Source: Acidobacteriota bacterium
GTDB lineage: Bacteria; Acidobacteriota; Terriglobia; Acidiferrales; UBA7541
Length of the DNA stretch: 64,000 nt
Direction: 5' to 3'
Assembly: GCA_003223245.1 (NCBI GenBank)
Contig: QHYI01000119.1
Coordinates: 62,001-126,000 of the forward strand
The first letter of the stretch is position 1; every line of letters begins with the position of its first letter. A program made the translations under genes and the position numbers. Shown piece by piece: positions 6,609 to 49,633 of this stretch. Under the pieces are notes generated by a model. That model made no database searches. It was not told the DNA's origin and was given only the letters and a program-made list of their open reading frames with translations.

Positions 6609-7886
<1,278 letters not shown>

Positions 7887-21612: not shown

Positions 21613-22395
21613 TCACGTCAAAGCGCGGTCGAGATGCACGTAACCGCCGTCAACCAGAACATGCTGGCCCGTGACGTGGCTGGCCTGCGGCGAAATCAGG
21701 AACAACGCCATCGCCGCGATTTCTTCGGGCTCGGTCATGCGCTTCCCGAGCGGAATTTTCGAGACAATGTGTTTCAGCTTTTCTTCGGGATTCGGAAACG
21801 TGCTGAGCCACCACTGGTAAAGGGGAGTCATAACTTCCGCAGGAACGATGGCGTTGACGCGCATGCCGTAGGGCAGCAATTCACAGGCCCAATCACGAGT
21901 GAGCGAAAGAATCGCGCCTTTCGCCGAGGTATAGCCGGAGGTTTTGCCCTGGCCGGTCATGGCCACTTTCGAGGCCACGTTCAGGATGCAGCCCTGCGAT
22001 TTTTTCAACGCGGGCAAAGCGTAGTGCGCCATGTTGTAGTAATGGAGCAGATTCAATTGCAGCGACTTGACGTATTTTTCCGGCGAGCCGGTTTCCAGAC
22101 CGACGTTGTCGTTTACGCCGACATTGTTGACCAGCACATCGAGGCGCCCGAAGTCGCGAAGCGTTTGCTCAACGATGGCAGCGCAGTTTTCTGCAGGGAT
22201 TACGTCGGTGACCATCGAGCCGCATTTTGCGCCAGAGTTGCACAGCTCGGCCTTGAGCTTCGTGGCGGCCTCGGCGTCCTTGTCGACGAAAACGGGAATG
22301 GCGCCTTCGCGCGCGCAACCCCGCGCGACGGCCGCGCCGATTCCTTTGGCGCCGCCGGTGATGAGAACCACTTTGTCTTTAAGCTGCAAGTCCAT
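21613..22395 (-). CDS. SDR oxidoreductase, likely L-fucose dehydrogenase
   Basis: 260 residues, classical SDR: Gly-Gly-Ala-Lys-Gly-Ile-Gly at 14-20, Asn-Asn-Val-Gly at 90-93, Ser142, and Tyr155 with Lys159. The gene begins inside the 3' end of the lactonase gene (17-bp overlap), so the two are co-translated. In non-phosphorylative L-fucose pathways an SDR oxidises L-fucose to L-fuconolactone, and a second SDR oxidises 2-keto-3-deoxy-L-fuconate. Only this one SDR is present in the block, so either role is possible, with the first favoured by the adjoining lactonase. Confidence 0.78.
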   Translation of the reverse strand: MDLQLKDKVVLITGGAKGIGAAVARGCAREGAIPVFVDKDAEAATKLKAELCNSGAKCGSMVTDVIPAENCAAIVEQTLRDFGRLDVLVNNVGVNDNVGLETGSPEKYVKSLQLNLLHYYNMAHYALPALKKSQGCILNVASKVAMTGQGKTSGYTSAKGAILSLTRDWACELLPYGMRVNAIVPAEVMTPLYQWWLSTFPNPEEKLKHIVSKIPLGKRMTEPEEIAAMALFLISPQASHVTGQHVLVDGGYVHLDRALT

Positions 22396-23233
22396 GTCGC
22401 GCCATCTTCAAACCATAGAATTCCGCGGCGTTGTCGCCGAAAATTTTTTCTTTCACCTCTGCCGCACAATCTTGAACGTAGTCTTCCACAATCTCCAAAA
22501 CCTGCCGGTAGCTGGCCGCCAGCAGGCAGACCGGCCAGTCCGAGCCGAACATCAGCCGCCCCGGGCCGAACGCGCCAAAGACTACATCCAAATAGGGCCA
22601 AAAATCTTCTTTCTTCCACTGTTGCCAATCGGCTTCGGTCACCATGCCCGAAAGTTTGCAGTACACGTTGGGATGCGCCGCCATCTTTTGCATAAGCGCG
22701 GCCCAGCCCGAGCGGCTTTTCAATTTGATTTCTGGCTTCGCGATGTGGTCGACGACGAAGCGCTGTTCCGGAAATTGCGCGACGAGTTCCAGGGCCGCGG
22801 GCAACTGGCGCGGGTAGATGAGAATGTCGTACGTGAAACCAAATTGATGGAGGTAGGCAATCCCGCGGACGAAGTCGGGACGCACGAGAAAACGATCGTC
22901 GGGCTCATCCTGGGCGATGTGGCGGAATCCACACAGCTTTTCGAATTGCGCGAAAAATTTCATGCGTTTTGCCGCCTGAGGGGAGCACAAATCGATCCAG
23001 CCAACGACTCCAGCGATGCTGGAGTTGTGCGCGGCAAGCTGGAGCAAAAATAGCGTTTCCTGCTCGGACTGGTCCGCTTGCACGGCGATGGTGGCGGCGA
23101 TCCCGTTGGCCTCGCGCTCCGGCTCCAGATCTTCCGGGAGAAAGTCGCGCTTCAGGAGGGACATTTCCTCGGTGACCCAAGAATGCCGGACGGCATTGTA
23201 TTTCCAGAAGTGCTGGTGCGAATCGATTCTCAC
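22379..23233 (-). CDS. L-fuconolactonase-like amidohydrolase (COG3618)
   Basis: 284 residues, an amidohydrolase_2 TIM barrel. Asp-Ser-His-Gln-His-Phe-Trp at the N-terminus, Val-Val-Asp-His-Ile-Ala-Lys-Pro mid-chain and Met-Phe-Gly-Ser-Asp-Trp-Pro near the end are the active-site motifs of the COG3618 lactonase group. Members open L-fucono- or L-rhamnono-lactones. Context (FucP, SDR, mutarotase) supports fuconolactone. ATG 23233 is used. An 80-bp gap upstream of the start holds a CTCAGGG palindrome. Confidence 0.87.
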   Translation of the reverse strand: MRIDSHQHFWKYNAVRHSWVTEEMSLLKRDFLPEDLEPEREANGIAATIAVQADQSEQETLFLLQLAAHNSSIAGVVGWIDLCSPQAAKRMKFFAQFEKLCGFRHIAQDEPDDRFLVRPDFVRGIAYLHQFGFTYDILIYPRQLPAALELVAQFPEQRFVVDHIAKPEIKLKSRSGWAALMQKMAAHPNVYCKLSGMVTEADWQQWKKEDFWPYLDVVFGAFGPGRLMFGSDWPVCLLAASYRQVLEIVEDYVQDCAAEVKEKIFGDNAAEFYGLKMARHGLAA

Positions 23234-23253
23234 TTTTCTCCAAAGAATTGTGT

Positions 23254-23279
23254 CTCAGGGGCTAAAGCCGTGCCCTGAG
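23254..23279. repeat. CTCAGGG palindromic repeat, copy 2
   Basis: CTCAGGG and CCCTGAG arms separated by 12 bases; related to the perfect copy at 19403-19422. It lies between the lactonase and the dehydratase genes. Confidence 0.45.
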
Positions 23280-23313
23280 GTAGCCTTATGTCACTTTCTT
23301 CATTTACACGCGA

Positions 23314-24984
23314 CTAGAGTGAGACGCCTCGCTTCCACGGGATAAAATCGTCTTGCCCCAGAATTTCAGCTGTGGTGCGCGCTTCGCCGCTGGCGACCTG
23401 AATCACGCGGTCCAAAATCGCTTCGCCCGTTTGCTCGATAGTGGTTTCGCCGGAGATGATGCCGCCGGCGTCGATATCAATAATGTCCGACATACGCTCG
23501 GCGAGACTCGAATTGGTCGAGATCTTCAATACCGGAGCGATAGGATTTCCGGTTGGCGTACCAAGACCTGTAGTGAATAGAACCACGTTCGCGCCGGCAC
23601 CGACCTGGGCGGTCACGCACTCGACGTCATTGCCGGGCGTGCATTGCAGATGGAGTCCGGGCTCGCTGGAATATTCGGGGTAGTCGAGAACCGCCGTGAC
23701 GGGCGACGTTCCGCCTTTCTTTGCAGCACCGGCAGATTTCATCGCGTCGGTAAGCAAACCGTCGCGAATGTTTCCCGGAGAAGGATTCATTTCGAAGCCG
23801 GAGCGAACGGCCTTTGCCCGAGCAGCGTAGTCGCGCATGAGCTGGACGAAGCGACCTGCAACCTGCTTCCGAACGCAGCGGTCGATTAGCTCCTGTTCTA
23901 CGCCGCAGAGCTCGGGAAACTCGGAAAGAATTCCCCGGCCGCCCAGCGCCACGAGCAAATCGGCGGTGTGGCCAATGGCCGGGTTCGCGGAGAGGCCGGA
24001 AAAACCGTCCGAGCCGCCGCATTTGAGCCCAAGCGTGAGTTGCGACAAAGGCGCGGGTTTGCGCTCCACTTTGTCGGCTTCGACCAGGCCGAGAAACGTT
24101 TCACGGATGGCCCGCGAAAGCATCGCCGATTCCGAGGGACTTTTTTGCTGCTCGAAAATCAGAAGCGGCTTATGGAAATTTGGGTCGCGAAGCTTGATTT
24201 GCTCCTGAAGGATCGGAATCTGCGCATGCTGGCAACCTAAGCTGAGAACGGTAGCGCCAGCAACATTCGGATGATGAATGTATCCCGCCAGCAACCCGCA
24301 GAGGTTATTGGAATCTTCGCGCGTGCCGCCGCAGCCGCCTTCGTGCACCAGAAATTTGATGCCGTCGACATTGCGGAACACTCTCGGGGAAGGCGTTCCC
24401 GGCGGCATTGCGCTGAAGGAGAATGACTTCAGCTCGTCACTTTTTCCTTCGCGATAGAGGCGAACGAGTTCGCCCACTTCGCGGCGATAGACTTGCGGCG
24501 CGGCGAAGCCGAGTTCTTCCTCGAAGGCTTGCTTCAAAACGGCGAGATTGCGGTTTTCGCAGAAAACGAGCGGCACAACAAGCCAATAATTTCGCGTGCC
24601 GACTTGACCGTCGGCTCTGTGGTAACCAGCGAAGGCCTTCTTCCGCCATGCCGAGACATCAGGCGGAGTCCAAGAACCGCTGACTTTGTCGGCTTCCTGG
24701 AACGCGGCGGCAGCATGGCGGATGTTGCGCGTGGAAAGCAAGTCGCCTGCCCGCAGAGCGCGCGTAGCTTTGCCCACAAGCACACCGTACATGACGATGT
24801 CGCCGCCAGCGGGTAGGTCTTGCGTGACGAATTTGTGTTTGGCGGGAACGTCGGCCGACAGAAGGTAGGCTTTTGCTGAAAAACTGACGTTCTCGCCTTT
24901 GCGCAAATCAGTGAGGGCCACGAGCACGTTATCGCGCGGGTCGAGCTGCAAAACCCGGCTTTGCGTTGTTAGCTTCATGGGCAT
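23314..24984 (-). CDS. UxaA-family dehydratase (altronate/aldonate dehydratase)
   Basis: 556 residues. Residues 10-95 form a SAF domain (Asp-Asn-Val-Leu-Val-Ala-Leu early), and the rest is the UxaA catalytic region: Gly-Tyr-His-Arg-Ala-Asp-Gly-Gln-Val-Gly-Thr-Arg-Asn, His-Glu-Gly-Gly-Cys-Gly-Gly, Gly-Cys-Gln-His-Ala and Leu-Lys-Cys-Gly-Gly-Ser-Asp. Known family members dehydrate D-altronate or galactarate. Here it is the first gene of a fucose-type block that lacks an enolase-type fuconate dehydratase, so L-fuconate may be its substrate. It could instead serve the galacturonate branch of the hexuronate genes 6 kb away. Confidence 0.85.
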   Translation of the reverse strand: MPMKLTTQSRVLQLDPRDNVLVALTDLRKGENVSFSAKAYLLSADVPAKHKFVTQDLPAGGDIVMYGVLVGKATRALRAGDLLSTRNIRHAAAAFQEADKVSGSWTPPDVSAWRKKAFAGYHRADGQVGTRNYWLVVPLVFCENRNLAVLKQAFEEELGFAAPQVYRREVGELVRLYREGKSDELKSFSFSAMPPGTPSPRVFRNVDGIKFLVHEGGCGGTREDSNNLCGLLAGYIHHPNVAGATVLSLGCQHAQIPILQEQIKLRDPNFHKPLLIFEQQKSPSESAMLSRAIRETFLGLVEADKVERKPAPLSQLTLGLKCGGSDGFSGLSANPAIGHTADLLVALGGRGILSEFPELCGVEQELIDRCVRKQVAGRFVQLMRDYAARAKAVRSGFEMNPSPGNIRDGLLTDAMKSAGAAKKGGTSPVTAVLDYPEYSSEPGLHLQCTPGNDVECVTAQVGAGANVVLFTTGLGTPTGNPIAPVLKISTNSSLAERMSDIIDIDAGGIISGETTIEQTGEAILDRVIQVASGEARTTAEILGQDDFIPWKRGVSL

Positions 24985-28620: not shown

Positions 28621-29940
28621 TCAGTTGCCGCGCATCCCCGTCCATTTCTCACCGTTAGCGCGGAAGAGGCGGTTCACGTCTCTCTGAATTTTCTGCCGGG
28701 TAATTTCGCCCCCGTCGGCGTTAAGCAATTGATAGGAATTTGCAAGGATAGGCGCAAGCGTGCGCCGCGTGTTGTGCCACTTGTAGATCACCTGCTCCAG
28801 GACGCGCGCGTCGGAATGCTGTGGAATAAAACTGGTTCCCAGCAGTTCGATCCGCTCTCGGGTGATTTCTTCGACGATCGAAGGATTGTTCAGGAACCAC
28901 CAGCAGCCGAACGGCATCAAGTTATTGAATTTTCGCGCGTAAACCGCAAGTTCGTGCTGATTCTCGCGGCTGAGTACGCTCACCAGGAAGCGATTGTCCG
29001 GAAAGCTGCGGCAAAGATTCTCGACAGCACGCATGTCTGCCTTGCCCACGGCGTCACCGGCAAGACGCAGCCTGGGATTGACCTGTCGCCGGACGCCAAT
29101 CATCAAGGACATGGGCAGATCCAACTCGCGACAAGTTGGCAGAACCGCTTCGCTCAACAATTTGCCGGTGATGCTCTCCTCCGGGAATTGAAATGCGTCG
29201 GTGAGGGAGACCGCCATGTACAGGGGGCGCATGCGCTTGTGCCAGTCGGCAAGGAACCGGCGGACTTCCGCAACGGACTTGCCCGAAGCGTCCTCGTCGA
29301 CGGCGTAGCCTTCTCTAGCCAGCTGTTGCCAGTGGTCCGGCCAAGCGCACAGGACGCGGTCGAGCCGCAGAACGGCGTGAAACTGAGGATCGTTCTGGCC
29401 GGCACCCGTCCAAACCGGGCGCTCCTGTGGATCGAGCGGATCGTTGGTCATCACCACATCGCTTACCCCCGCCATCTTCAGAACTTTGCGGATGTGCGAC
29501 TCGATCGATTGCGCCTGAAAAAAACGTCGCGCTTCGGACAACCCTGCAGCGTCGGTCGGCAAACCAAAAGCCTGCAAAACTGCAACTACCCCGCGAGTGG
29601 ATTCAGAAACAGGACTGTTTTCGACGAATAGAGCTTTCCAGATGGCGTCGGCGCGCTGGGCTTTTGAGAGCTTCCAGTATTCCTCCGGCGTAGTGTCCGA
29701 ACTGCGGAAGAACTCGGCTTCCAGATAGTGGTAGGTCAGAAGTTCGTCGATTCCCCACAAACCGATCTTGCCAAACGGGGGCGAGAACAGATGGGTATGA
29801 ATATCGATAACCTGGGTAGACTCGAGCACATCTTGCACTTCGCGGGCAATTTCCGCGGGCTTCAGGCGGCGGTCGGAAAACGAACCATTTTTGCGGCTCG
29901 TTAGTTTGCGATTTGGCGACTTAACGGAAGTGGCTGACAT
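28621..29940 (-). CDS. UxaC-like glucuronate isomerase family protein
   Basis: 439 residues, a divergent member of the uronate isomerase branch of the amidohydrolase superfamily. His-Thr-His near residue 48 is the HxH metal motif, and Gly-Cys-Trp-Trp-Phe-Leu-Asn-Asn-Pro near residue 343 closely resembles the UxaC C-terminal motif. The enzyme would turn glucuronate into fructuronate or galacturonate into tagaturonate, supplying the hexuronate genes 11 kb away, which lack an isomerase. It is a little shorter than E. coli UxaC (470). It converges on the LysR gene with an 18-bp gap. Confidence 0.7.
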   Translation of the reverse strand: MSATSVKSPNRKLTSRKNGSFSDRRLKPAEIAREVQDVLESTQVIDIHTHLFSPPFGKIGLWGIDELLTYHYLEAEFFRSSDTTPEEYWKLSKAQRADAIWKALFVENSPVSESTRGVVAVLQAFGLPTDAAGLSEARRFFQAQSIESHIRKVLKMAGVSDVVMTNDPLDPQERPVWTGAGQNDPQFHAVLRLDRVLCAWPDHWQQLAREGYAVDEDASGKSVAEVRRFLADWHKRMRPLYMAVSLTDAFQFPEESITGKLLSEAVLPTCRELDLPMSLMIGVRRQVNPRLRLAGDAVGKADMRAVENLCRSFPDNRFLVSVLSRENQHELAVYARKFNNLMPFGCWWFLNNPSIVEEITRERIELLGTSFIPQHSDARVLEQVIYKWHNTRRTLAPILANSYQLLNADGGEITRQKIQRDVNRLFRANGEKWTGMRGN

Positions 29941-30221: not shown

Positions 30222-31247
30222 ATGACCATGCATATCGGGCTCATCGGCGGAGGAAATATCACAGAGACGCACATTCGGGCGGCGCGTATGATTCCGGGTG
30301 TTGAGATTGCTGCGGTGTATGGCAGCAACCTGGAAAAAGTGAAGCGGCTGTGCCGCGAACACGGCGGCACGCCGTACGCGGACTTCTCCGCTTTTCTCGC
30401 GCACCGACCCATGGATCTCGTGATCCTCGGGAGCCCTTCGGGCCTCCACGCTACGCAAGGCATCGCGGCGGCCAAGCAAGGTATGCATGTTTTGACGGAA
30501 AAGCCTATTGATATCAGCACGAGCCGCGCCGACGAACTCATCGAAGCGGCGGAGCGAGCCGGCGTGAAGCTCGGAGTGATTTTTCAAGACCGGATGAAGC
30601 CGCACATCCGCAAACTGAAGGATTGGATCGATCGCGGTGTGCTGGGCAAACCGCTGCTGGTGGATGCGCGCGTGAAGTGGTACCGACCGCCGGAATATTA
30701 TGCAAATTCGCGCTGGCGCGGCACGCTGGCGCTCGACGGCGGAGGGGCAGTCGTCAACCAAGGGGTTCACACCCTCGACCTACTTTTGTGGCTGTTGGGC
30801 GACGTGTCACGAGTCCAGGCGCAGACGGCTACGCAGCTCCATAAAATCGAAGCCGAGGACACGGCTACGGCGATTCTGGAATTCGCGAACGGCGCGCTTG
30901 GACTGTTTCACGCGACGACGGCCGCTTATCCTGGATATCCGCGCCGCGTGGAGATTACGGGCACGCAAGGCACGGTTATCCTCGAACACGACCAAATCGT
31001 TGCTGCCGATTTGCGCGAACGCGCCGGTGAAACCGCGGGGATTGCGCCGCGTGACGAGAACCAGAGCGCTTCATCCGCGGTGGTCAATGATTTTCGAGGC
31101 CATCAGGCAGTTATTGAAGATTTTCTTTCCGCCATGCAGAAAAACTCGAGGCCGGCTTGCGACGGCCGTGAAGGGCGCCGCAGTATCGCCTTGGTCGAAG
31201 CCATCTATTGCGCCGCGCGCGGCGGGCAGAAGTCCGCAAACGTGTGA
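30222..31247 (+). CDS. Gfo/Idh/MocA family oxidoreductase
   Basis: 341 residues with the standard two-domain layout: an N-terminal Rossmann fold (Gly-Leu-Ile-Gly-Gly-Gly-Asn-Ile at 5-12), Thr-Glu-Lys-Pro near residue 94, and a C-terminal alpha/beta domain with Gly-Gly-Gly-Ala-Val-Val-Asn-Gln-Gly-Val-His-Thr-Leu-Asp, the family's conserved substrate-side Asp/His motif. Members oxidise sugars, polyols or their derivatives with NAD(P). A second ATG two codons in (30228) is an equally good start. It converges on the LacI gene, which may regulate it, but no operator was seen at its start. Confidence 0.87.
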   Translation: MTMHIGLIGGGNITETHIRAARMIPGVEIAAVYGSNLEKVKRLCREHGGTPYADFSAFLAHRPMDLVILGSPSGLHATQGIAAAKQGMHVLTEKPIDISTSRADELIEAAERAGVKLGVIFQDRMKPHIRKLKDWIDRGVLGKPLLVDARVKWYRPPEYYANSRWRGTLALDGGGAVVNQGVHTLDLLLWLLGDVSRVQAQTATQLHKIEAEDTATAILEFANGALGLFHATTAAYPGYPRRVEITGTQGTVILEHDQIVAADLRERAGETAGIAPRDENQSASSAVVNDFRGHQAVIEDFLSAMQKNSRPACDGREGRRSIALVEAIYCAARGGQKSANV

Positions 31248-31286: not shown

Positions 31287-32357
31287 TCAGAGTTTACGGA
31301 CGGTTTCACGCACCACAAATTCGGTAGGCAGAATTCGCTGGCTGAAGGCCATTTGTGGATGATGTAAGCGCTCGAGAAGCATTTTCATGCACGTTTCGCC
31401 GATCTCCTCTTTGTGAACGCGAACTGTCGAGAGCGGCGGGTCCATCAGGACGGCTTCTTCGCGGTCGTCGAAACCTACCAAACTGACTTCTTCCGGCACC
31501 TTGAGTCCCTGACGACGCAAAGACAGCCAAAGCCCATAGGCCGTTTCATCGTTTCCGGCTACCACTGCACTGGGCCGCGACGGACGCGACAAGATTCGGC
31601 GCGCGCTCTTTTGGCCGAAATCCACGAAGCCGTCCGAATTTCGAATGGTGATGGAGATAGGCTTGAGCTTGTTCTCCCGCATTGCCTGGCGGTAGCCCTC
31701 GAAGCGGCGTTGAATCCACGGGAAGGACATGTCTCCGGCGAAGTCGATGAGGCGGTGCCCCTGCTCGATCAGGTAGCGCGTGGCCTGCAGCGTTCCATTA
31801 AAGTCGTCGAACCCCACCTGGTCGTACTGTTGGCCTCCGTCCATTCCAACCACATTGTTGCTAAAGGCCACGAAGGGCATACGGATGGATTCGATCCTTC
31901 GGAGAAGATTCGGGTAGATGGTGCCGGCCAGGATGATACCATCAATCAGCCCATGCTCCTGAAGAACCGCAGGCAGATCGATCTTCTCGGGAGTTATTCG
32001 CGGTGAGTAGTGGAGAACGGCAAACAGCACATGATGTTTCAGCGTGCTGGCGTAAGATTCCACTCCCTGGAGAATGCGCGCGTGAAATGGGTGAAGAAAA
32101 TCGCGATTGCTCAAGAGGAAGCAAACAATTTCCGAGCGGCGCTTGAGGATGCGCCGGGCCTGGGCGTTGGGGCGAAACCCCAGACGCCGGATGGCTTCGA
32201 GCACGCGTGCACGAGTTTCGCGGCTGACTTGAGAGCTCGCATTCAGCACGCGCGAGATGGTTCCTATGCCCACTCCCGCAGCCCGCGCTACCTCTCGAAT
32301 TGTCGTTTTCTTTGGAACTGCTTCCACGACGGCGTTTGCATTTTGGGCCTTTGGCAT
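31287..32357 (-). CDS. LacI-family transcriptional regulator
   Basis: 356 residues. The helix-turn-helix begins at about residue 18 (Thr-Ile-Arg-Glu-Val-Ala-Arg-Ala-Ala-Gly-Val) and is followed by the hinge-helix segment (Arg-Pro-Asn-Ala-Gln-Ala-Arg) and a periplasmic-binding-protein-like sugar domain. It is divergent from the TonB receptor at 32902, in front of which lies a perfect LacI-type palindrome (32845-32860). The simplest reading is that it represses the receptor operon until a sugar or its derivative binds. The effector cannot be read from the sequence. Confidence 0.92.
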   Translation of the reverse strand: MPKAQNANAVVEAVPKKTTIREVARAAGVGIGTISRVLNASSQVSRETRARVLEAIRRLGFRPNAQARRILKRRSEIVCFLLSNRDFLHPFHARILQGVESYASTLKHHVLFAVLHYSPRITPEKIDLPAVLQEHGLIDGIILAGTIYPNLLRRIESIRMPFVAFSNNVVGMDGGQQYDQVGFDDFNGTLQATRYLIEQGHRLIDFAGDMSFPWIQRRFEGYRQAMRENKLKPISITIRNSDGFVDFGQKSARRILSRPSRPSAVVAGNDETAYGLWLSLRRQGLKVPEEVSLVGFDDREEAVLMDPPLSTVRVHKEEIGETCMKMLLERLHHPQMAFSQRILPTEFVVRETVRKL

Positions 32358-32814: not shown

Positions 32815-32844
32815 TTGACACCTAGCGTGACGCGCGGTTATGTT
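32815..32844 (+). promoter_or_regulatory. Sigma-70-type promoter of the TonB receptor
   Basis: TTGACA at 32815-32820 and TATGTT at 32839-32844, spacer 18. Transcription would start near 32851, inside the operator and about 50 bp before the receptor start. Confidence 0.6.
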
Positions 32845-32860
32845 TTGGAACCAGTTCCAA
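32845..32860. promoter_or_regulatory. LacI-type operator
   Basis: TTGGAAC-CA-GTTCCAA, perfect 7-base arms with a 2-base centre. It begins directly after the -10 hexamer and covers the expected transcription start, the classical repressor position. The form is that of LacI-family operators, and a LacI gene is divergent. Confidence 0.65.
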
Positions 32861-32901
32861 GGGTTTTTTGAGGAGAAGTTTTTTGGCGGTGAGTGGGGGG
32901 C

Positions 32902-35900
32902 ATGAGCAACCTTTTTAGCAGGCCCTTATTTGAGGAGAATACAGGGAAATTCCAGAAAGAAAGTCCGGAGTGTCACGCCAACGCCGGAAAGAGCCTGGGT
33001 AGCTTCGGACAGGTCGGGGCGGTAATCGTGCTCGGTCTAATCCTGGCGATGAGCGCCGCTCAGGTCATGGGCCAGGCGGTGAATGGCGCCTTTCTCGGCA
33101 CGATCACTGATTCGACCGGAGCGGCCGTGTCTGGCGCCAAGGTTACCATCACAGAGCAAAATCAAAACGTGAGCCGCTCGGCAACGACCAACGACAGCGG
33201 CTTTTACTCTTTTCCGGATGTGCCGCCGGGCGTTTATAAGGTGACGGCAGAAAAGACCGGCTTCAAGACTGTGGTGCGAGCCAATGTGGAACTTTCGGTG
33301 AGCACTACGGCTCACGTCGATCTCACTCTGCAACCGGGGTCCGTCAACGAGACGATAACTGTGGAAGCTACCCTTCCCCCGCTGCAGACCGATAGCGCGC
33401 AGACCGGGGCAGACCTCGCCGCCACTCAGGCGGAGGACTTGCCGGTGGCTAACGGGCGAAATTTCCAGAATCTTATGGACCTGATTCCCGGTGCGACGAA
33501 GGCTGACTTCAACCATTCCGTCTTCTTCAACCCTCAGGGCAGCCGCAACAGTGAAGTCAACGGCACCTCGAGCTTGAGCAACAATTTCCAAATCGAAGGT
33601 GTGAATGACAACGAGCGCACCGGACTGCTGCAGGTTTACGTTCCACCAATTGAGGCCATTCAAGAGGTGAAGGTCCTCACGAGCAATTACGACGCGGAGC
33701 AAGGAACGGCTCTGGGGGCGGTGGTCAACGTCATCTACAAGTCGGGGACTAACGATTTTCATGGGACCGCCTACGACTTCCATAATGACGATGGGCTCAA
33801 CGCCAAAAGCTTTTTCGATCGCGGCGCCAACGGGGCGCCATTTCACAAGCCTCACTCGGTGTACAACTACTGGGGAGGAAATTTGGGTGGTCCGATTTTC
33901 AAGGGCAAGACTTTCTTCTTCGTGGACTACCTCAGAACAACGAATCATCAGGCGCAATTTCAACAGTTCAGCGTCCCGACGGCTGCCGAGCGCGTCGGGG
34001 ATTTCAGCGATCCGGCGCTGACTGAGATTTTTGACCCAGCGACAGGCGACACTGTGGATTGCCTTCCCGGAGGTAATGCAAAGCTCTGTGGGACCGGGCG
34101 CACGCAGTTCGTCGCTTCCTCCAATCCCTCGAGCCCCAATTACAACGCAGCGTGCACGCCCACTACCCCGGGCTACAACGCTGGCAACTGCCCAAATATC
34201 ATTCCTTTCAACCGCATCGACCCGATCGCCCTCAAGATAACGAACATGCTCCCGCCCGCCAACAACAATCTCACGGCTTCGGGCACTGCCAAGTATTCAA
34301 ACAATTACCTGGAGCACACTGCATTCAGCCAAGATAACAATGACATTGACGTCAAAATCGACCACTACCAGGGCAAGAACGACCATATTTCGGGTCATCT
34401 CGGATACATGAATCCCACTACTTTTCAGGCTCCTGCATACGGCATTGCTGGCGGGCCTGTTGGCGGAGGGTTTCAAGGAAATGGAACGGACAAAACGTAC
34501 TCAGTGGCCATTAACTGGGACCACATTTTCTCCCCCTCGTTTATTGTGCAGAACCGCATCGGGCTGAACCGTTACCGCAACACAGCCCAGCAGATTGACT
34601 ACGGCACCAACGCCTCAACCAATCTCGGCATTCCCGGTGTAAACGTGGGCCCATTTGAAAGCGGACTAACGGGAATTTTCATCAATCAGGGGACCAACGG
34701 ATCATCCGGCGCCACTATTTCCAATCCCATGGTGGGTTACTCAGCGAGTCTTCCCTGGGTTCGCGCGGAAACCGATTTGGATCTTGTCAGTAACTGGAAC
34801 AAGGTGATCGGCAATCACACGATCAAATGGGGCGGCAATCTGATCCGCATCCGTGACGATCTGTTACAAGAGCAGACTTTCAGCCCGCGTGGCGCTTGGA
34901 GCTTTGGTCCTAACACAACGGGATTGAACGGTACGGGCGCACCCAAGGTGGGCTTTGCCAACAGCTTTGCCAGCTTTGTGCTCGGTGTTCCAGGGCAAGT
35001 AGGGCGCGATCTAGCCATCGTCTTTCCCGCCTATCGGGAATGGCAAGTTTTCGCCTACGCCAACGATAAGTGGCAGGTGAGGCCCAAGTTGACCCTGAAT
35101 CTTGGTGTGCGCTGGGAATTTTATCCACCCGGAACGCCTCATTTTCCTGGAGGGTTCTCCAACTACGATCCGACCACCAACAATCTCGTGGTGGCGGGCG
35201 TTGGCGGCAATCCTCTGGATTTGGGCATGCAGAAGAACTACAAGGACTTTGCCCCTCGCCTTGGCTTGGCGTATCAATTCACGAGCAAAGACGTCGTGCG
35301 CGCCGGAGTTGGCATCAGCTATGAGCCCTTCCCGGACAATACCTACGCGTATGATTTCCCGGTGAAGCAGAACAACTCTTTCGGCAGTTTGTCGGGATTT
35401 GGCCCGGCCATCGTCACCCTCCCCGATGGAACGCAAACTGCGTCGACATTTGCCAATGGATTTCCGCCGCCGCTACCGGCTACGATTCCTGCCAGTGGCA
35501 TCATTCCGGCGAACACGGCCCTGCTCATCAACCAGAGCTACGACGTGATTAACCTTCACTATCTCGATCCCTACATCCAGTCCTGGAATCTCACCTATCA
35601 ACGGGCTTTGCCGGGAAAATTCACTCTGGGCGTTGGCTACGTAGGAAACCGCGGAGTGCACGCTCCCATTCAGTACAACCTGAATGCCATCTCGAACCCT
35701 GCTCAGTTTGGCGCGGGACCAGCCGGCCAGCCGCTCCACGGTTTCTGCGTCCCCGGGACAACGACTTGCCGTACGGCAGATACCACGGAACGTTTTGCCG
35801 CCGCAACCTCCGACTACAATGCTCTTCAGGTGACATTCGACCGCCGAGTCGGGAGTGGGTTCATTTTGACTACCTCTTACACGTATGGTAAAGCGCTCGG

Positions 35901-36519
35901 GTACATCGAAGAGAGCGGAGAAAACTCCAACGGCATCGATTACTACATCAACTTCCGCAGGAACTATGCGCGGACCGACTTCGACCGCACACACATGTTT
36001 GTGCAAAGCTACATCTGGGACCTTCCGTTCGGAAAAGGGCGTCGCTGGATTCGCGGCGGGCCGCTGAATGCCGTTTTTGGCGGTTGGCGCTTCAGCAACG
36101 TTGTGACCTTCATGACCGGAACTCCCTTCAATTTTAACTGTACCTGCAAGACCATCAACACCCCGGGAAACCATCAGTCTCCCAATGTGACCGGCCCGAT
36201 TGCCGAGCCAAAGGGAGTCGACACGCAGCTCTGGTTTGATACCTCCGTCTTTCAGGACCCCGGCGGAACCTCCTTCGGCAACGTGGGACGTTACATTCTG
36301 TCGGGTCCCAACTTCTTCAATTTGGACTCCTCCTTGGCCAAGGTCTTCCGGCTTACGGAGCGGTTCAACTTTGAATTTCGGACCGATTGGTTCAGCGCCA
36401 CAAACATGCCGCAATTCAGCAATCCCAACGTGACGTTGGGCGACGCCAACTTCGGGCGCGTGACATCGACCGTCGGCGGCGCCCGCAACATCTATTTTGG
36501 AGGCAGGCTTACCTTCTAA
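32902..36519 (+). CDS. TonB-dependent receptor, Oar-like, with carboxypeptidase-regulatory-like domain
   Basis: About 1205 residues. After an unusually long N-terminal region (hydrophobic segment about 40-55, cleavage near Val-Met-Gly-Gln) comes a carboxypeptidase-regulatory-like beta-sandwich (Thr-Asp-Ser-Thr-Gly-Ala-Ala-Val, then Gly-Val-Tyr-Lys-Val), a plug domain and a long barrel ending in Phe. It imports or binds a large ligand, probably a glycan breakdown product given the LacI control and the sugar-isomerase-like genes downstream. ATG 32902 is used; GTG 32893 is an alternative. A G-run ends near the ATG and AGGAGAAG lies further up, so the start is not settled. It is 104 bp ahead of the next gene and likely co-transcribed. 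Confidence 0.88.
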   Translation: MSNLFSRPLFEENTGKFQKESPECHANAGKSLGSFGQVGAVIVLGLILAMSAAQVMGQAVNGAFLGTITDSTGAAVSGAKVTITEQNQNVSRSATTNDSGFYSFPDVPPGVYKVTAEKTGFKTVVRANVELSVSTTAHVDLTLQPGSVNETITVEATLPPLQTDSAQTGADLAATQAEDLPVANGRNFQNLMDLIPGATKADFNHSVFFNPQGSRNSEVNGTSSLSNNFQIEGVNDNERTGLLQVYVPPIEAIQEVKVLTSNYDAEQGTALGAVVNVIYKSGTNDFHGTAYDFHNDDGLNAKSFFDRGANGAPFHKPHSVYNYWGGNLGGPIFKGKTFFFVDYLRTTNHQAQFQQFSVPTAAERVGDFSDPALTEIFDPATGDTVDCLPGGNAKLCGTGRTQFVASSNPSSPNYNAACTPTTPGYNAGNCPNIIPFNRIDPIALKITNMLPPANNNLTASGTAKYSNNYLEHTAFSQDNNDIDVKIDHYQGKNDHISGHLGYMNPTTFQAPAYGIAGGPVGGGFQGNGTDKTYSVAINWDHIFSPSFIVQNRIGLNRYRNTAQQIDYGTNASTNLGIPGVNVGPFESGLTGIFINQGTNGSSGATISNPMVGYSASLPWVRAETDLDLVSNWNKVIGNHTIKWGGNLIRIRDDLLQEQTFSPRGAWSFGPNTTGLNGTGAPKVGFANSFASFVLGVPGQVGRDLAIVFPAYREWQVFAYANDKWQVRPKLTLNLGVRWEFYPPGTPHFPGGFSNYDPTTNNLVVAGVGGNPLDLGMQKNYKDFAPRLGLAYQFTSKDVVRAGVGISYEPFPDNTYAYDFPVKQNNSFGSLSGFGPAIVTLPDGTQTASTFANGFPPPLPATIPASGIIPANTALLINQSYDVINLHYLDPYIQSWNLTYQRALPGKFTLGVGYVGNRGVHAPIQYNLNAISNPAQFGAGPAGQPLHGFCVPGTTTCRTADTTERFAAATSDYNALQVTFDRRVGSGFILTTSYTYGKALGYIEESGENSNGIDYYINFRRNYARTDFDRTHMFVQSYIWDLPFGKGRRWIRGGPLNAVFGGWRFSNVVTFMTGTPFNFNCTCKTINTPGNHQSPNVTGPIAEPKGVDTQLWFDTSVFQDPGGTSFGNVGRYILSGPNFFNLDSSLAKVFRLTERFNFEFRTDWFSATNMPQFSNPNVTLGDANFGRVTSTVGGARNIYFGGRLTF

Positions 36520-36623: not shown

Positions 36624-37604
36624 ATGCAGCATCGCATGCCGCGTCGTAACTTTTTGTTTGGTATAGGAGCAGCCACGGCGGCAACGACGTTCGCCTCTTT
36701 TCCTTCCTGGCGCGCTCCTCTGCTCGCGGCCGAACCTCTTTACCCACATATAGATTTATCGTACTTCGACACACCGATTTCGCCTGCGCCCGGCGAAATT
36801 CATTTTGGATACGCATCCATCACTTGGAATGGGAATGACCGCCAGGCAATCGACGACATTTCGTCCTTGGGTTTTCCCGGGATTCAGCTGCGCGCCAATG
36901 CTATCGAGGAATTTGCCAGCCCTGCGGAGTTGCGCGGCTTGCTCGAAAAGCATCATTTGAAAATGGTCGCGCTTTCCAGCGGCAGCGTGCGCATTGATCC
37001 TGCAGTCGAGGCCGAGGAAATCGCCAAGCACATTTCCCATGCGAAATTTGTGCAGGATGTGGGAGGGCTCTATCTTCAAGTCACCGACCAGCGTCCCAAG
37101 GACCGCGCGGTCACGCCAGCCGATTACGTGCGTTTGGGTAGATTGATCACGGAAATTGGCAAGCGCACCGCCGACCTGGGAGTCACGGTCGGCTACCACA
37201 ACCACATGGGCACTCTCGGACAAAGTCCTGAAGAAGTGGATCAAATCCTGGAGGCGGCGGACCCGCGCTACGTCAAGCTGGAACTTGACGTGGCGCATTA
37301 CTTCCAAGGCGGCGGCGATCCCGCCAAGGCCGTCGAGAAATACCACGATCGCCTGCTGTTCTTGCATATTAAGGATGTCGAATCGCTGCCCAACGCCGCG
37401 GACCCGAAGCGCAACTATCGTTTCGTCGAACTAGGCCGCGGGCGCGTGGACCTCCCGGCGGTGTTTGACGCCTTACACAAGGTCAATTTTCGCGGCTGGG
37501 CCGTCGTTGAGCTCGATGCCGTACCGGACAAGCGCCGCACGCCCAAAGAATGCGCGGAAATCAGCCAAAAATATCTGGAAGAGAAAATCGGGGTGACCAT
37601 ATGA
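36624..37604 (+). CDS. Tat-exported sugar isomerase/epimerase-like TIM barrel
   Basis: 326 residues. The N-terminus reads Pro-Arg-Arg-Asn-Phe-Leu-Phe-Gly followed by an Ala-rich stretch, a twin-arginine signal, so the folded protein is probably periplasmic. The body is an AP-endonuclease-2/xylose-isomerase-like TIM barrel, with Gly-Tyr-His-Asn-His and Leu-Glu-Leu-Asp-Val and His-Ile-Lys-Asp, the usual metal-ligand strands of IolE-like proteins. The reaction is unknown: inosose dehydratase or 3-keto sugar epimerase types are possible. GAGGGAG precedes ATG 36624. It overlaps the following gene by four bases. Confidence 0.78.
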   Translation: MQHRMPRRNFLFGIGAATAATTFASFPSWRAPLLAAEPLYPHIDLSYFDTPISPAPGEIHFGYASITWNGNDRQAIDDISSLGFPGIQLRANAIEEFASPAELRGLLEKHHLKMVALSSGSVRIDPAVEAEEIAKHISHAKFVQDVGGLYLQVTDQRPKDRAVTPADYVRLGRLITEIGKRTADLGVTVGYHNHMGTLGQSPEEVDQILEAADPRYVKLELDVAHYFQGGGDPAKAVEKYHDRLLFLHIKDVESLPNAADPKRNYRFVELGRGRVDLPAVFDALHKVNFRGWAVVELDAVPDKRRTPKECAEISQKYLEEKIGVTI

Positions 37605-38482
37605 AGTCGCCCTTTCGTGTTGCGGTCATTAACGACGAAATTACCCAGGACTTCGGCAGGGCTTGTGAAATCGCAGCAAAAGAATACGGCATGGACTGGA
37701 TCGAACTGCGCGGCATGTGGAACAAGAACATTTTGAGCCTGGACGCGAAAGAAATTGCCGAGGCGCGGAGTATCCTGGAGAAACACAAGCTGCGCGTCAC
37801 GGATATTGCCAGCCCGCTTTTTAAAGTGGATTGGCCGGATGCACCTAAGTCAAAATTCAGTCCCAAACGCGATCAATTCAACGCGGACTTCACATTCAAA
37901 CAGCAGGGCGAAGTGCTTGAGCGCAGCATCGAGCTGGCCAAAGCCTTCAACACGGATCGCGTGCGGTGCTTCGACTTCTGGCGCCTGGACGACCAAGCCC
38001 CCTACCGTGCGGCGATCAATGAGAAGTTGCTGGACGCCGCCAACACGGCGGGCAAGAAGAACGTGCTGCTTGTCCTCGAAAACGAACCTTCCTGCAACAC
38101 GGCCACAGGGGCCGAGGCAGCCAAAGTTCTCGGCGAAGTTAAATCTCCTTATTTAATGCTGAACTGGGATCCGGGAAATGCCTCAGAGCGCGGCGAAATT
38201 CCGTATCCCGATGGCTATAATCTGCTGCCGAAAGACCGCATCGGCCATTGCCACTGCAAGGATTCTGTAAAGAAGCCGGACGGCAAGTACGCTTGGGCGC
38301 CGATGGGCGGGGGCATGATCGATTGGGTAGGCCAATTCAAAGCGCTGAAGCGCGACGGCTACCATTTCGCCGTGAGCCTGGAAACTCATTGGCGCGGCGC
38401 GGGCACACCGGAGGAATCTACAGGCGAGAGCTGGGCGGGGATGAAAAAGGAGTTACAGGAGGCTGGCGCACTCGAGTCATAG
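37601..38482 (+). CDS. Sugar isomerase/epimerase-like TIM barrel (cytoplasmic)
   Basis: About 293 residues starting at ATG 37601, which overlaps the stop of the previous gene as ATGA. It is a second xylose-isomerase-like TIM barrel without a signal peptide. Visible metal-side motifs are Leu-Glu-Asn-Glu-Pro, Asn-Trp-Asp-Pro-Gly-Asn and His-Cys-His-Cys-Lys-Asp, plus a late Ser-Leu-Glu-Thr-His. Pairing an exported and a cytoplasmic barrel in one translation unit suggests successive steps on the ligand brought in by the upstream receptor; that is inference. No specific reaction is indicated. Confidence 0.78.
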   Translation: MKSPFRVAVINDEITQDFGRACEIAAKEYGMDWIELRGMWNKNILSLDAKEIAEARSILEKHKLRVTDIASPLFKVDWPDAPKSKFSPKRDQFNADFTFKQQGEVLERSIELAKAFNTDRVRCFDFWRLDDQAPYRAAINEKLLDAANTAGKKNVLLVLENEPSCNTATGAEAAKVLGEVKSPYLMLNWDPGNASERGEIPYPDGYNLLPKDRIGHCHCKDSVKKPDGKYAWAPMGGGMIDWVGQFKALKRDGYHFAVSLETHWRGAGTPEESTGESWAGMKKELQEAGALES

Positions 38483-39365: not shown

Positions 39366-40076
39366 ATGGCCAAAGAAAAGGACCCCAATGCCCCTGGGAG
39401 TATCCCGCCAAATGAGAACGGGAACAAACACGCTCTGCGAAGACGTGAATTCGTCAAGCTAGTCGGCGGAACCGGCGTTGCCGCTACGGCTCAGGTCCTT
39501 GCAGGGCGCCAGTTGGCTACCGCCGCAACCACCACGGTGCCAGACGAGGCGGTTGGCTCCGGCAAAGTAATTGGTCCGGGGCCGGTGCCAATGACGCTGC
39601 GCATCAACGGCGAAGCGAAAAGAGTGACTCTGGAACCGCGGGTTACTTTGCTCGATGCCCTGCGCAACCATCTCGACCTAACCGGAGCGAAAAAAGTTTG
39701 CGACCGCGGCACTTGCGGCGCGTGCACGGTCATCGTGAATAAGAAGCCGGTTTATTCCTGCAGCGTCCTGGCGATTGAAGTGGCCGACCGCGATGGAAAA
39801 CCGGGAGCGGAGATTCGCACGATCGAAGGTTTGGCTCCGGAAGGCAAGCTGCACCCTGTTTCGGCGTCGTTTGTTGAAAACGATGCGCAACAGTGCGGCT
39901 TCTGCACCCCGGGTTTCGTCATGTCTTGTACGGCGTATCTTGAGACGCACCACAATCCCACGATTGAAGAAGTAAAGCAGGCGCTTGGCGGCAACCTCTG
40001 CCGCTGCGGAACATATATGGGCGTTCGAAACGCGGTCGTGCAAGCGGCAATGTCTATGAAAGGAGGGCGCGCCTGA
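39366..40076 (+). CDS. Aldehyde/xanthine dehydrogenase family, [2Fe-2S] subunit (PaoA/YagT-like)
   Basis: 236 residues. A twin-arginine signal (Arg-Arg-Arg-Glu-Phe-Val-Lys-Leu-Val) is followed by a plant-type ferredoxin domain (Cys-Asp-Arg-Gly-Thr-Cys-Gly-Ala-Cys plus a later Cys) and an all-helical [2Fe-2S] domain (Cys-Gly-Phe-Cys and Cys-Arg-Cys-Gly). The Tat signal points to a periplasmic enzyme, as for E. coli PaoABC, where only this subunit carries the signal. It passes electrons from the molybdenum centre toward FAD. The stop shares one base with the start of the next gene. Confidence 0.92.
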   Translation: MAKEKDPNAPGSIPPNENGNKHALRRREFVKLVGGTGVAATAQVLAGRQLATAATTTVPDEAVGSGKVIGPGPVPMTLRINGEAKRVTLEPRVTLLDALRNHLDLTGAKKVCDRGTCGACTVIVNKKPVYSCSVLAIEVADRDGKPGAEIRTIEGLAPEGKLHPVSASFVENDAQQCGFCTPGFVMSCTAYLETHHNPTIEEVKQALGGNLCRCGTYMGVRNAVVQAAMSMKGGRA

Positions 40077-42205
40077 TGGCTGACTATCATTGGCCTCCCA
40101 CTGACAAATGCAACTTGATCGGCAGGCGCATCGCGCGCCTGGACGGACCGTGGAAGTCTTCGGGCCGCATCAAGTACAGCTATGACATGAATCGCCCGAA
40201 CATGCTCCACGCCAAGATGGTTTTCTCGCCGTACGCCCACGCCAAAGTCGTGAGCATTGATACCAGCGCAGCAGAAAAAATGCCCGGCGTGAAAGCCATC
40301 GACATTATTACGGAGCCCGGGAAAGAAGTTTTCTGGGCCGGGCACGAAGTCGCCGCTGTGGCCGCGGAAACCGAGGAGCAGGCGCGCGATGCAGCTCGCC
40401 GCGTTCAAGTTCGCTACGAAAAACTTCCTCACCTGGTTTCCGACGTGGAGCCCTCAAAAGCCGGTGAACACACCAAGCAACTCGCTGAACAAACCGACGG
40501 CAATCCCGACCAGGCCTTGCAGCAGGCAGAAGTGACCAGCGAAGGCGAGTACGGAGTCCCTGTTATCACCCACTGCTGCCTGGAAACGCACGGCCAAGTA
40601 GCGGAATGGGATGGCGACAATCTTACAGTTTATGCTTCCACCCAGAATGTAAGCGGCATACCGGGGGAATTTGTGCGCGCCAAGATCGCGGATTCCGCGG
40701 ATAAAGTGCGCGTGCTCACTCCGGTCATGGGCGGCGGCTTTGGCAGCAAATTCGGAGCCGACACTTGGGGGCTCGCGTGCGCACGGCTTGCCAAGAAAAC
40801 TGGGCGCCCCGTGAAGCTGATGCTCGAACGCGATCAGGAATTGATGGCTGCAGGCGCGCGCCCTTCGATGTACGCGAAGGTGAAAGTGGGCGCAAAGAGG
40901 GACGGCACACTGACGGGCTGGCAGTCCGAATCCTGGGGCACGGGAGGCCCGGATGCGCAAGGCGGCGCTCCGAGCATCCCCTACGTCGTTCGCATTCCCG
41001 ACCGCCGAATCCGGCACACTACCGTACTGACCAACATAGGTCCGGCTCGCGCCTGGCGTGCGCCGAATCATCCCCAGATGTGCTTGATTACCATGTCCGC
41101 GCTCGATGACTTGGCCGCGAAGCTTGGCATGGACCCGGTCGAGATGCTGCAGAAAAATATCGACATGACCGGCCAGCTTTCTAAGACGTATTCGGCCGAA
41201 CTGGAAAAAGCTGCCGAATTGATGGATTGGAAAAAGAAGTGGCATCCGCGCGGTGACAAAACCCCGGGCTCCATAAAGAGAGGCTTGGGCGTTTCCATTC
41301 ACACCTGGGGCGGTAGAGGCCACGACAGCAATTGCAACTGCGTTATTCAGCCCGACGGTTCGCTGTCCGCCTCGCTGGGCTCGCAGGATCTAGGGACAGG
41401 AACGCGCACGGTGATTGGCATTGTTACCGCGGAAACCATGGGATTGCCGCTGGAAGCCGTAAAGGTGAACATTGGCGATTCGAAGTATCCCGCCGATGGC
41501 GCGTCGGGCGGTTCCACGACGGTTGGAGGCGTTAGCTCCTCGACGCGGCGTGCCGCCACCGCGGCACTGAATCAGCTCCTTGAAAAGGTTGCTCCCTCAC
41601 TGAATGCCAAACCGGAGGAACTGGAAGCGGTGGATGGAAAGATTCGCGTCATAGGCAACCCCAGCAGAGCCATTTCCTGGAAGCAAGCCTGCGCCAAGCT
41701 CGGCACAACGCCTATCACCGGTGTCGGCCAGCGCAGCAACGACCTGATTTCCAGCGGCGTCGGCGGCGCGCAAATGGCGGAAGTCAGCGTGGATACCGAG
41801 ACCGGTCAAGTGTATGTCGACAAGCTGGTTGCGGTACAGGATTGCGGCCTGATCATTGATTTGAAAACCGCGGAGAGCCAGGTGTATGGCGCCTGCATCA
41901 TGGGCATTACCTACTCGCTCTTCGAACACAAGATCATGGACGAGCAAACGGGCCGTTGCCTCAACGCCGACATGGAGTTCTACAAACTTGCAGGAATCGG
42001 CGACTTCGGCGAGATTGTCGTTCATATGATGACCGGCAGCGGCTTCGACGAGCGCGGCGTCATCGGTCTCGGCGAGCCGCCGGTGATTTCTCCCGGCGCC
42101 GCCATTTCGAACGCTGTAGCCAACGCCATCGGCGTGCGCGTGCCCACGCTCCCGCTCACCCCCGATAAGGTCCTCGGCGCGCTGGAGAAAGGAGCGGTAG
42201 CCTGA
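40076..42205 (+). CDS. Molybdenum-cofactor subunit, xanthine/aldehyde dehydrogenase family (PaoC/YagR-like)
   Basis: 709 residues. Gly-Gly-Gly-Phe-Gly-Ser and Ala-Trp-Arg-Ala-Pro bind the molybdopterin, and the catalytic Glu lies in Gly-Leu-Gly-Glu-Pro-Pro near residue 662. The enzyme oxidises an aldehyde or a heterocycle with water as oxygen source. Family members closest to this arrangement are periplasmic aldehyde oxidoreductases, but substrate range cannot be judged by eye. It has a 1-bp overlap at each end, a strict three-gene translation unit. I see no XdhC/PaoD-type cofactor-insertion chaperone in the window. Confidence 0.92.
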   Translation: MADYHWPPTDKCNLIGRRIARLDGPWKSSGRIKYSYDMNRPNMLHAKMVFSPYAHAKVVSIDTSAAEKMPGVKAIDIITEPGKEVFWAGHEVAAVAAETEEQARDAARRVQVRYEKLPHLVSDVEPSKAGEHTKQLAEQTDGNPDQALQQAEVTSEGEYGVPVITHCCLETHGQVAEWDGDNLTVYASTQNVSGIPGEFVRAKIADSADKVRVLTPVMGGGFGSKFGADTWGLACARLAKKTGRPVKLMLERDQELMAAGARPSMYAKVKVGAKRDGTLTGWQSESWGTGGPDAQGGAPSIPYVVRIPDRRIRHTTVLTNIGPARAWRAPNHPQMCLITMSALDDLAAKLGMDPVEMLQKNIDMTGQLSKTYSAELEKAAELMDWKKKWHPRGDKTPGSIKRGLGVSIHTWGGRGHDSNCNCVIQPDGSLSASLGSQDLGTGTRTVIGIVTAETMGLPLEAVKVNIGDSKYPADGASGGSTTVGGVSSSTRRAATAALNQLLEKVAPSLNAKPEELEAVDGKIRVIGNPSRAISWKQACAKLGTTPITGVGQRSNDLISSGVGGAQMAEVSVDTETGQVYVDKLVAVQDCGLIIDLKTAESQVYGACIMGITYSLFEHKIMDEQTGRCLNADMEFYKLAGIGDFGEIVVHMMTGSGFDERGVIGLGEPPVISPGAAISNAVANAIGVRVPTLPLTPDKVLGALEKGAVA

Positions 42206-43194
42206 TGGAACGCTTTGAATACGCTCATCCAACGACACAGCACGAAGCCATTGGCCTGCTTGGCTCCAGTTGGAATGACGCCGCGGTGCTGGCGGGCGGC
42301 ACAGACTTAATCAGCCTGATGAAAGAGTACGTCGTCACGCCAAAGCGCGTCGTGAATATCAAGAACGTCGAAGGCTTAGACGGCATTCATTCGAATGCCG
42401 AAGGCGTGACCATCGGCGCGCTGGTCACGATGGACGAACTCCTCGCAGATAAAACCATTCGTTCTGAATTCCCTGCCCTTGTGCACGCCGCGGAAGGCAT
42501 CACCAGTCCGCAGATTCGCGCCATGGGCACCGTCGGCGGCGACCTCTGCCAGCGGCCGCGTTGTTGGTACTTCCGCAACGGCTATGGCCTGCTTGCCATG
42601 GACGAAAGCGGGCATTCGTTGGTACGCGATGGCGAAAACCGCTACCACGCCATCCTTGGCAACAGCGGACCCGCCTATTTCGTAAATCCATCGAGCCTGG
42701 CTCCCGCGCTCATCGCACTCGACGCCAAGCTTCAGTTGGAGGGCCGCAAAGGCAAACGCGAAGTGCGCGCTTCGGAATTTTTCATCATCCCCAAATCCGA
42801 CAGCGAGCGCGAGAACGTCCTCGAGCCGCACGAAGTGCTCACTCATATCGTGATTCCAGCTTCCTCCCGCGGTTTTCGCAGCGCTACCTATGAAGTGCGT
42901 CACAAAACCGCGCTCGACTGGCCACTCGCTGCTGCGGCGGTTGCCGTTAAACTGGAAGGCGGCAAAGTTAGGGAAGGACGTATAGTGCTTGGCCACGTTG
43001 CGCCGATTCCTTGGCCAGCGCCCGACGCAGAAAAGGAACTCGAAGGAAAATCCATAACCGAAAGCACGGCAGCAAGCGTTGGCGAAGCGGCCGTGCGCGG
43101 CGCGAAGCCCCTGAGTCAAAACGGTTACAAGATTCAGCTCACCAAGGTGGCCGTCAAACGCGCGTTGCTCGCCGCCGCGAAAGGAGAAGCGTAG
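42205..43194 (+). CDS. FAD-binding subunit, xanthine/aldehyde dehydrogenase family (PaoB/YagS-like)
   Basis: 329 residues. Ala-Gly-Gly-Thr-Asp near residue 31 and Thr-Val-Gly-Gly-Asp-Leu near 110 bind FAD. Cys115 and Cys120 (Leu-Cys-Gln-Arg-Pro-Arg-Cys-Trp-Tyr-Phe-Arg) belong to the PaoB-specific insert that normally holds a [4Fe-4S] cluster with four cysteines. In the following 40 residues no further cysteine is seen, so the cluster may be absent or completed by another protein. A six-cysteine small protein is encoded immediately downstream. Confidence 0.9.
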   Translation: MERFEYAHPTTQHEAIGLLGSSWNDAAVLAGGTDLISLMKEYVVTPKRVVNIKNVEGLDGIHSNAEGVTIGALVTMDELLADKTIRSEFPALVHAAEGITSPQIRAMGTVGGDLCQRPRCWYFRNGYGLLAMDESGHSLVRDGENRYHAILGNSGPAYFVNPSSLAPALIALDAKLQLEGRKGKREVRASEFFIIPKSDSERENVLEPHEVLTHIVIPASSRGFRSATYEVRHKTALDWPLAAAAVAVKLEGGKVREGRIVLGHVAPIPWPAPDAEKELEGKSITESTAASVGEAAVRGAKPLSQNGYKIQLTKVAVKRALLAAAKGEA

Positions 43195-49485: not shown

Positions 49486-49633
49486 GACTCCCTTCTTTCT
49501 GACGAGACCCGGCGCCGACGAGGAACTCAAGAAATCCGCTGACCCTAGGGTGGTGACGAGGTTAGACCCTTCTGAGCAAACCAAACCGTTCAATTCCTAG
49601 ACAAGATGCAGGCTCCACAGAGCGCTGGGATGG

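Follow-up and report, generated by a model that had tools for sequence, protein, structure and literature searches.

A conserved predicted LacI-type operator and a probably exchanged outer-membrane receptor gene in subdivision-2 type Acidobacteria

We predict with high confidence that the receptor promoter in a 64-kb stretch of acidobacterial DNA (the window) is controlled by a local LacI repression switch. The repressor and its predicted operator have changed very little among a group of soil Acidobacteria; the receptor behind them appears to have been swapped among very different versions. This exchanged receptor is the part of the locus that deserves specialist attention.

The LacI gene (31287-32357, minus strand) and the receptor gene, whose ATG is at 32902 on the plus strand, diverge from a common intergenic region of 544 bp. 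Within it, a -35 hexamer TTGACA (32815-32820, plus strand) and a -10 hexamer TATGTT (32839-32844, plus strand) are separated by an 18-bp spacer, and together they are the sole sigma-70-like match between 32250 and 32950, where 0.3 would be expected. The -10 hexamer is directly abutted by the palindrome TTGGAACCAGTTCCAA, TTGGAAC-CA-GTTCCAA (32845-32860; hereafter O1), which lies over the inferred transcription start. The first-pass annotation had described just this arrangement, a promoter running straight into a palindrome with a divergent LacI gene, and the description was accurate. Its figure of 16 bp for the palindrome holds as far as the repeat is perfect in the window, but the outermost pair is not conserved. 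The conserved core measures 14 bp (32846-32859), because the preceding base is G in 14 of 15 orthologous loci and T only in the window.

Palindromicity by itself is weak evidence for O1, and conservation decides. Perfect 7-2-7 palindromes are not rare per se, as there are six in the 64-kb window; the LacI-receptor intergenic region contains one, against 0.03 expected. The genome scan that had been proposed for the palindrome was run, and the 16-mer has a single perfect match in the 6.3-Mb genome of origin. With up to two mismatches it is found at 17 places, compared with 19 for a backward control.

Orthologues of the LacI protein (approximately 80% identity or more) were present in 14 of the 36 genomes of the genus, the window's own included. 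A fifteenth, which also has the core, was found later in Acidobacteriaceae bacterium BP_10. All 15 orthologues found are in subdivision-2 type Acidobacteria, and they are 79-88% identical to the window's LacI. An even palindromic operator in the promoter is a trait of the LacI family, and TGGAAC[C/T]AGTTCCA stands at one and the same promoter position in 15 of 15 loci, these sites being related by descent rather than independent. TTGACA lies 30-31 bp upstream of the core in 14 loci, and G007 is the exception, with no recognisable -35 box before the core. The only other LacI matches in an 89-genome family set were three proteins from another genus at 38-39% identity, and a search of their loci for the 16-mer, allowing up to two mismatches, gave no match.

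Three relatives lack this LacI but have a receptor of the same subfamily: G010 and G015 within the genus, and G087 in another genus of the family. The core was found before the receptor in none of the three (in G087, an 18-kb stretch was searched), and TTGACA nonetheless persists before the receptor genes of G010 and G015. Absence of LacI from these draft genomes may reflect an assembly gap (G010 is 84% and G015 86% complete); in G010 and G087 the flanks of the receptor lie on one contig. In G015 a match to the core with three mismatches, which we take for chance, lies about 210 bp upstream of TTGACA. Conservation upstream of orthologous receptors had been named as a possible refutation, and checking it did not refute the operator. 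Together, the phylogenetic footprint (15/15) and the absence of the core from three LacI-less relatives strongly support the proposed LacI operator on the receptor promoter. G010 and G087, both without the LacI core before the receptor, have an IclR-family gene just after it, which suggests that different lineages have put the receptor under the control of different regulators. Upstream of the G010 receptor (L127, approximately 6840-6860), where the LacI operator is absent, the inverted repeat TTGACAATGAATGTCAA sits on the -35 box and is a candidate site for the IclR-family regulator.

The regulator itself is a 356-residue protein with clear matches to both LacI-family models (PF00356, 62 bits, cut-off 27; PF13377, 125.6 bits, cut-off 26.5). 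The recognition-region segment GTISRVLN and the hinge segment RPNAQARRIL are the same in all 15 orthologues, with small changes beside them. LacI-family operators typically, though not obligatorily, have CG at their centre; here the centre is CA in 13 loci and TA in two. When the protein is aligned to chain 5ysz, the hinge Leu position, which we take to be the residue inserted into the middle of the operator, is occupied by Ile, and this substitution may go with the unusual C-A or T-A centre.

A one-mismatch copy of the core, O2 (32313-32326), falls within the first codons of the LacI frame, and in all 15 orthologues (14 of 14, then BP_10) such a copy lies on or close to the LacI start codon. 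Its first triplet is ATG, a possible start codon, in 8 of 14 rows; in the window and several other loci an alternative ATG about ten codons upstream could also serve. The spacing between O2 and O1 is 219-271 bp in ten loci and 499-551 bp in four. Within O2, Val is encoded by GTT and Pro by CCA in 14 of the 14 rows tested, and the middle codon varies. Only five of 65 conserved four-fold columns are codon-invariant, two of which are these GTT and CCA codons, and third bases elsewhere in such columns are mostly C or G. O2 is thus a probable operator, putatively autoregulatory or used for looping, and a preference for A/T-rich codons near start codons could partly explain it. Both sites are somewhat unusual for the family, since the centre of O1 is not CG and fewer than 1% of the LacI-family sites catalogued in a published survey lie in coding regions (PMC4052901). 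Elsewhere in the genome of origin, two other LacI-family genes lie within approximately 2.5 kb of receptor barrels (contigs C191 and C76), and LacI-receptor pairing may recur there.

In the mechanism that we propose, a LacI-family dimer would bind the 14-bp core on the receptor transcription start and block RNA polymerase until a sugar-type effector is bound. Effector binding would then permit expression of the receptor and probably of two isomerase-like genes. The same protein probably also binds O2 at the start of its own gene, which would limit its own synthesis. DNA binding, repression rather than activation, autoregulation and the identity of the effector are all inferred here from sequence comparison.

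It is very improbable that another regulator uses the palindrome, or that the inverted repeat arose by chance, with the adjacent LacI acting elsewhere. Such an explanation would fit the six perfect palindromes of the window, the near-matches that are no more numerous than those of the backward control, and the C-A or T-A centred cores of G022 and G028, two genomes without this LacI. However, it does not account for the co-occurrence of core and LacI at one promoter position in 15 of 15 loci, nor for the absence of the core in all three relatives that have the receptor and lack this LacI. Some members of the LacI family act as activators or as co-repressor-type regulators. The protein described here could work in one of these ways, as PurR does (PMC4052901), but we give this reading marginally less credence still: a site downstream of the -10 hexamer, over the inferred start, suits steric repression. 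The position of O1 is compatible with a ligand that either releases or recruits LacI. We therefore favor a local switch in which LacI represses the receptor promoter.

The first-pass annotation had also looked to the operator as a route to a wider regulon and so to the ligand, an expectation that was not borne out. In the 36 genus genomes, exact TGGAACNNGTTCCA occurs at 30 places, 14 of which are LacI loci, and a backward control pattern at 10 places. All 16 other exact 14-mers were fetched and assigned by reading gene frames: 12 fall in plausible genes, one in a short gap between two genes and one beside a gene (G022), and two are unclear. No receptor or sugar-gene promoter is evident among these 16 sites (0/16 clearly of this kind), and a regulon sharing the operator across the 36 genomes was rejected. 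A C-A or T-A centre is found in only two of the 16, those in G022 and G028; the G028 copy is inside a gene frame. The G022 copy (L121, 3003) has the same 14-bp core beside a gene that we take to be MerR-type, and is probably an unrelated site. The scan covered exact cores across the genus and mismatched sites in the genome of origin, where the single one-mismatch 16-mer (contig C96) lies inside gene frames; of the two-mismatch places in that genome, the two within the window were examined further. The regulator looks like a local one with a single locus, and in the published survey nearly 90% of LacI-family regulators are of the local kind (PMC4052901). We also scanned 30 receptor loci of the same genome for 7-0-7 and 6-2-6 palindromes and obtained 9 matches, with two sequences counted under both spacings and one match being O1 itself. 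Because 6.2 matches were expected, palindromes follow no common rule before receptors.

The receptor gene (32902-36519, plus strand) encodes 1205 residues with a carboxypeptidase-regulatory-like N-terminal domain (CarboxypepD_reg, PF13620, 76.1 bits) and a large beta barrel (OMP_b-brl_4, PF25183, 694.5 bits), and is presumably of the Oar type. The classical TonB barrel model PF00593 scored 24.3, below its cut-off of 27, and no plug model was listed at E 0.001. The receptor had been called giant, which is a misnomer because most receptor frames listed in the same genome are approximately 1050-1430 residues long. This genome yields 72 receptor model matches, with some genes counted in pieces.

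Two genes for isomerase-like proteins of the AP_endonuc_2 family lie downstream on the plus strand, at 36624-37604 and 37550-38482, the true start of the second being probably near 37601. A PDB search with the second protein returned nothing at E 1e-4. Isomerase-like genes follow the receptor in eight of the nine LacI-bearing loci whose contig shows the downstream part; the exception is G035, which has none within approximately 7 kb. G019 has a single such gene (L064, 14466-15524), which reads as a fusion of the TAT-signal start of the first protein with the second protein, as though a deletion had joined the two. The switch had been said to cover the receptor and both isomerase-like genes. 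The two genes are real, and a single operon is plausible because no promoter-like site was found between receptor and isomerase-like genes, terminator-like matches there are only at chance level, and the genes follow the receptor in eight of nine loci.

The receptors in the slot behind the LacI switch fall into four classes. Class A comprises the receptors of G006, G011, G035, G003, G018 and BP_10, class B those of G007, G012, G002, G019, G001 and G008 (the last assigned from a receptor fragment on another contig), class C those of G017 and G009, and class D that of the window only. The receptors of G001, G002, G007 and BP_10 are cut by contig ends. Identity is 65-99% within classes and 44-62% between them. 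All belong to one subfamily, to which the other receptors listed in the genus are at most 38% identical, and the 16 genus genomes that have any slot receptor have one each (best 19 candidates scored per genome). Among the receptors listed from 95 genomes of the order (E 1e-200), none outside the window is closer than 52% to the class D protein. Divergence alone is not special in this genus. A second receptor in the window (45874-49593), used as a control, likewise has no genus relative above 48%, and therefore the case for exchange rests on disagreement among trees rather than on divergence.

LacI DNA sequences form two clades in the tree (100/99 each), and each clade includes receptor classes A, B and C, the presence of class C in both resting on G017. 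By the AU test, the LacI data reject monophyly of class A (p = 4e-9), class B (p = 9e-38) and class C (p = 2e-4), and the receptor data reject that of LacI clade 1 (p = 4e-59). Receptor classes are also cut across by the tree of the downstream isomerase-like gene (8 rows) and by the rpoB tree (18 rows, without G001, G003 and BP_10, and with rpoB from at most 13 of the 15 LacI-bearing genomes); a MocA tree of 6 rows was weakly supported. Because the receptor classes are not matched by the LacI, flanking-gene and rpoB trees, receptors were probably exchanged in place, with recombination as the presumed cause of the classes. G017 belongs to clade 1 by LacI but to clade 2 by rpoB and the isomerase-like gene; part of its locus may have moved too, because its LacI conflicts with rpoB, and the moved tracts may have differed in length. 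When G007 is compared with G011, the promoter region also differs (43-65%) while LacI is approximately 87-96% identical, and the tract exchanged there therefore probably includes the promoter.

We tentatively propose a fixed regulatory socket, in which LacI, the operator and mostly the isomerase-like genes stay and recombination swaps at least four ancient receptor alleles, each working under the same switch; we hold this general picture at somewhat less than even confidence. Selection for ligand variants, or phage and toxin pressure on the receptor, may maintain the alleles in the population. The classes could instead be ancient tandem paralogues lost differently in each lineage, which we consider unlikely. 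The classes are indeed old: class B receptors, and in part those of class A, split in their own tree along the two LacI clades. However, none of the 16 genus genomes has two receptors of the subfamily among the best 19 candidates scored in each, and every class lies directly across from LacI, with isomerase-like genes behind it in all but one of the loci that show this part. The same neighborhoods bear on the ligand, for which our best guess is a sugar containing uronic acid, because uronate isomerase-like, ManD, KDPG aldolase and KdgK-like genes lie near the loci. A Gfo/Idh/MocA oxidoreductase gene (30222-31247, plus strand) is conserved beside LacI in five relatives, and beside the locus in the window is a gene for a uronate isomerase-like protein of the BH0493 type (28621-29940, minus strand; 457 bits to 2q08). 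Clade 1 loci adjoin this gene, with four relatives at 83-87%; it is absent from the stretches of G008 and G017. The ligand might instead be sought among xylosides, fucose-type sugars or other glycosides, a possibility that we rate only slightly below even. A GH3 xylosidase-like gene (below its NCBIfam cut-off) lies behind LacI in L068 and, by eye, also in L069; a FucP-type transporter (over its cut-off) is encoded approximately 13 kb from LacI in G007; L057 contains a TAT protein weakly like glycoside 3-dehydrogenase; and a fuconolactonase-like gene in the window scores below its cut-off. The uronate-type sugar is favored by the isomerase-like gene that flanks the locus in the window and four relatives, by ManD and KDPG aldolase genes over their cut-offs in the G008 stretch (together with a KdgK-like kinase below its cut-off), which lacks the isomerase gene beside LacI, and, in G087, by genes for an aldolase and a KdgK-like kinase that share a gene row with the receptor.

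Two further gene groups lie in the window. A row at 21613-24984, near the uronate isomerase-like gene, has the look of an acid-sugar or L-fucose pathway: it contains the fuconolactonase-like gene (299.8 bits, cut-off 400), a galactarate-dehydratase-like gene (261.1 bits, cut-off 730.85) and a further gene that we take to be SDR-like. Three genes at 39366-43194 presumably encode molybdenum hydroxylase subunits, and the first two of them also accompany the locus in G011 and G008.

Acidobacteria of this group have dozens of such receptors per genome, and we know of no ligand for any of them. Because the predicted switch is readable and well bounded for one receptor, its LacI could be used in vitro to sense the ligand. 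Should receptor alleles indeed be exchanged behind an unchanging regulator, natural variants would be comparable under identical regulation, and whether a sugar or an outside attacker drives receptor diversity could then be tested. Pseudomonas fpvA provides a precedent for divergent siderophore receptor alleles that differ far more than their flanks. The receptor alleles described here share this property; in contrast to fpvA, they belong to a carbohydrate-type locus under a LacI switch and are spread across species of a soil genus.

Our literature search, which leaves most subscription journals outside, yielded no description of receptors controlled by LacI in Acidobacteria, and the main text of the LacI-family survey mentions neither "Acidobacteri" nor "TonB" (PMC4052901). 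According to that survey, 72% of the regulators covered are autoregulated and 1173 of 1303 TFs have operators with a CG centre (PMC4052901). The predicted switch shares with the local regulons described there an even palindrome in the promoter of the neighboring operon and control of a single pathway; it differs in its C-A or T-A centre and in having O2 within coding sequence. In the sucrose locus of Xanthomonas campestris, a LacI/GalR-family repressor gene, suxR, adjoins the gene for a TonB-dependent receptor, SuxA; suxR is over-expressed in a suxR mutant, and control is negative and effector-dependent (PMC1790865). A LacI-family repressor gene adjoining a receptor gene is common to both systems, with regulation predicted in the one described here. 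This locus has a CarboxypepD_reg/OMP_b-brl_4 receptor and isomerase-like genes, whereas SuxR/SuxA, as described in that report, has an amylosucrase; moreover, the receptor classes here differ among relatives. A CUT-type locus combines a receptor, a repressor, an inner-membrane sugar transporter and a glycoside enzyme; of these parts, receptor and repressor are adjacent here, and MFS transporter genes were seen only near the loci of some relatives. SuxR/SuxA is nevertheless the nearest studied case, and by analogy the predicted switch is an ordinary local LacI switch of a known kind.
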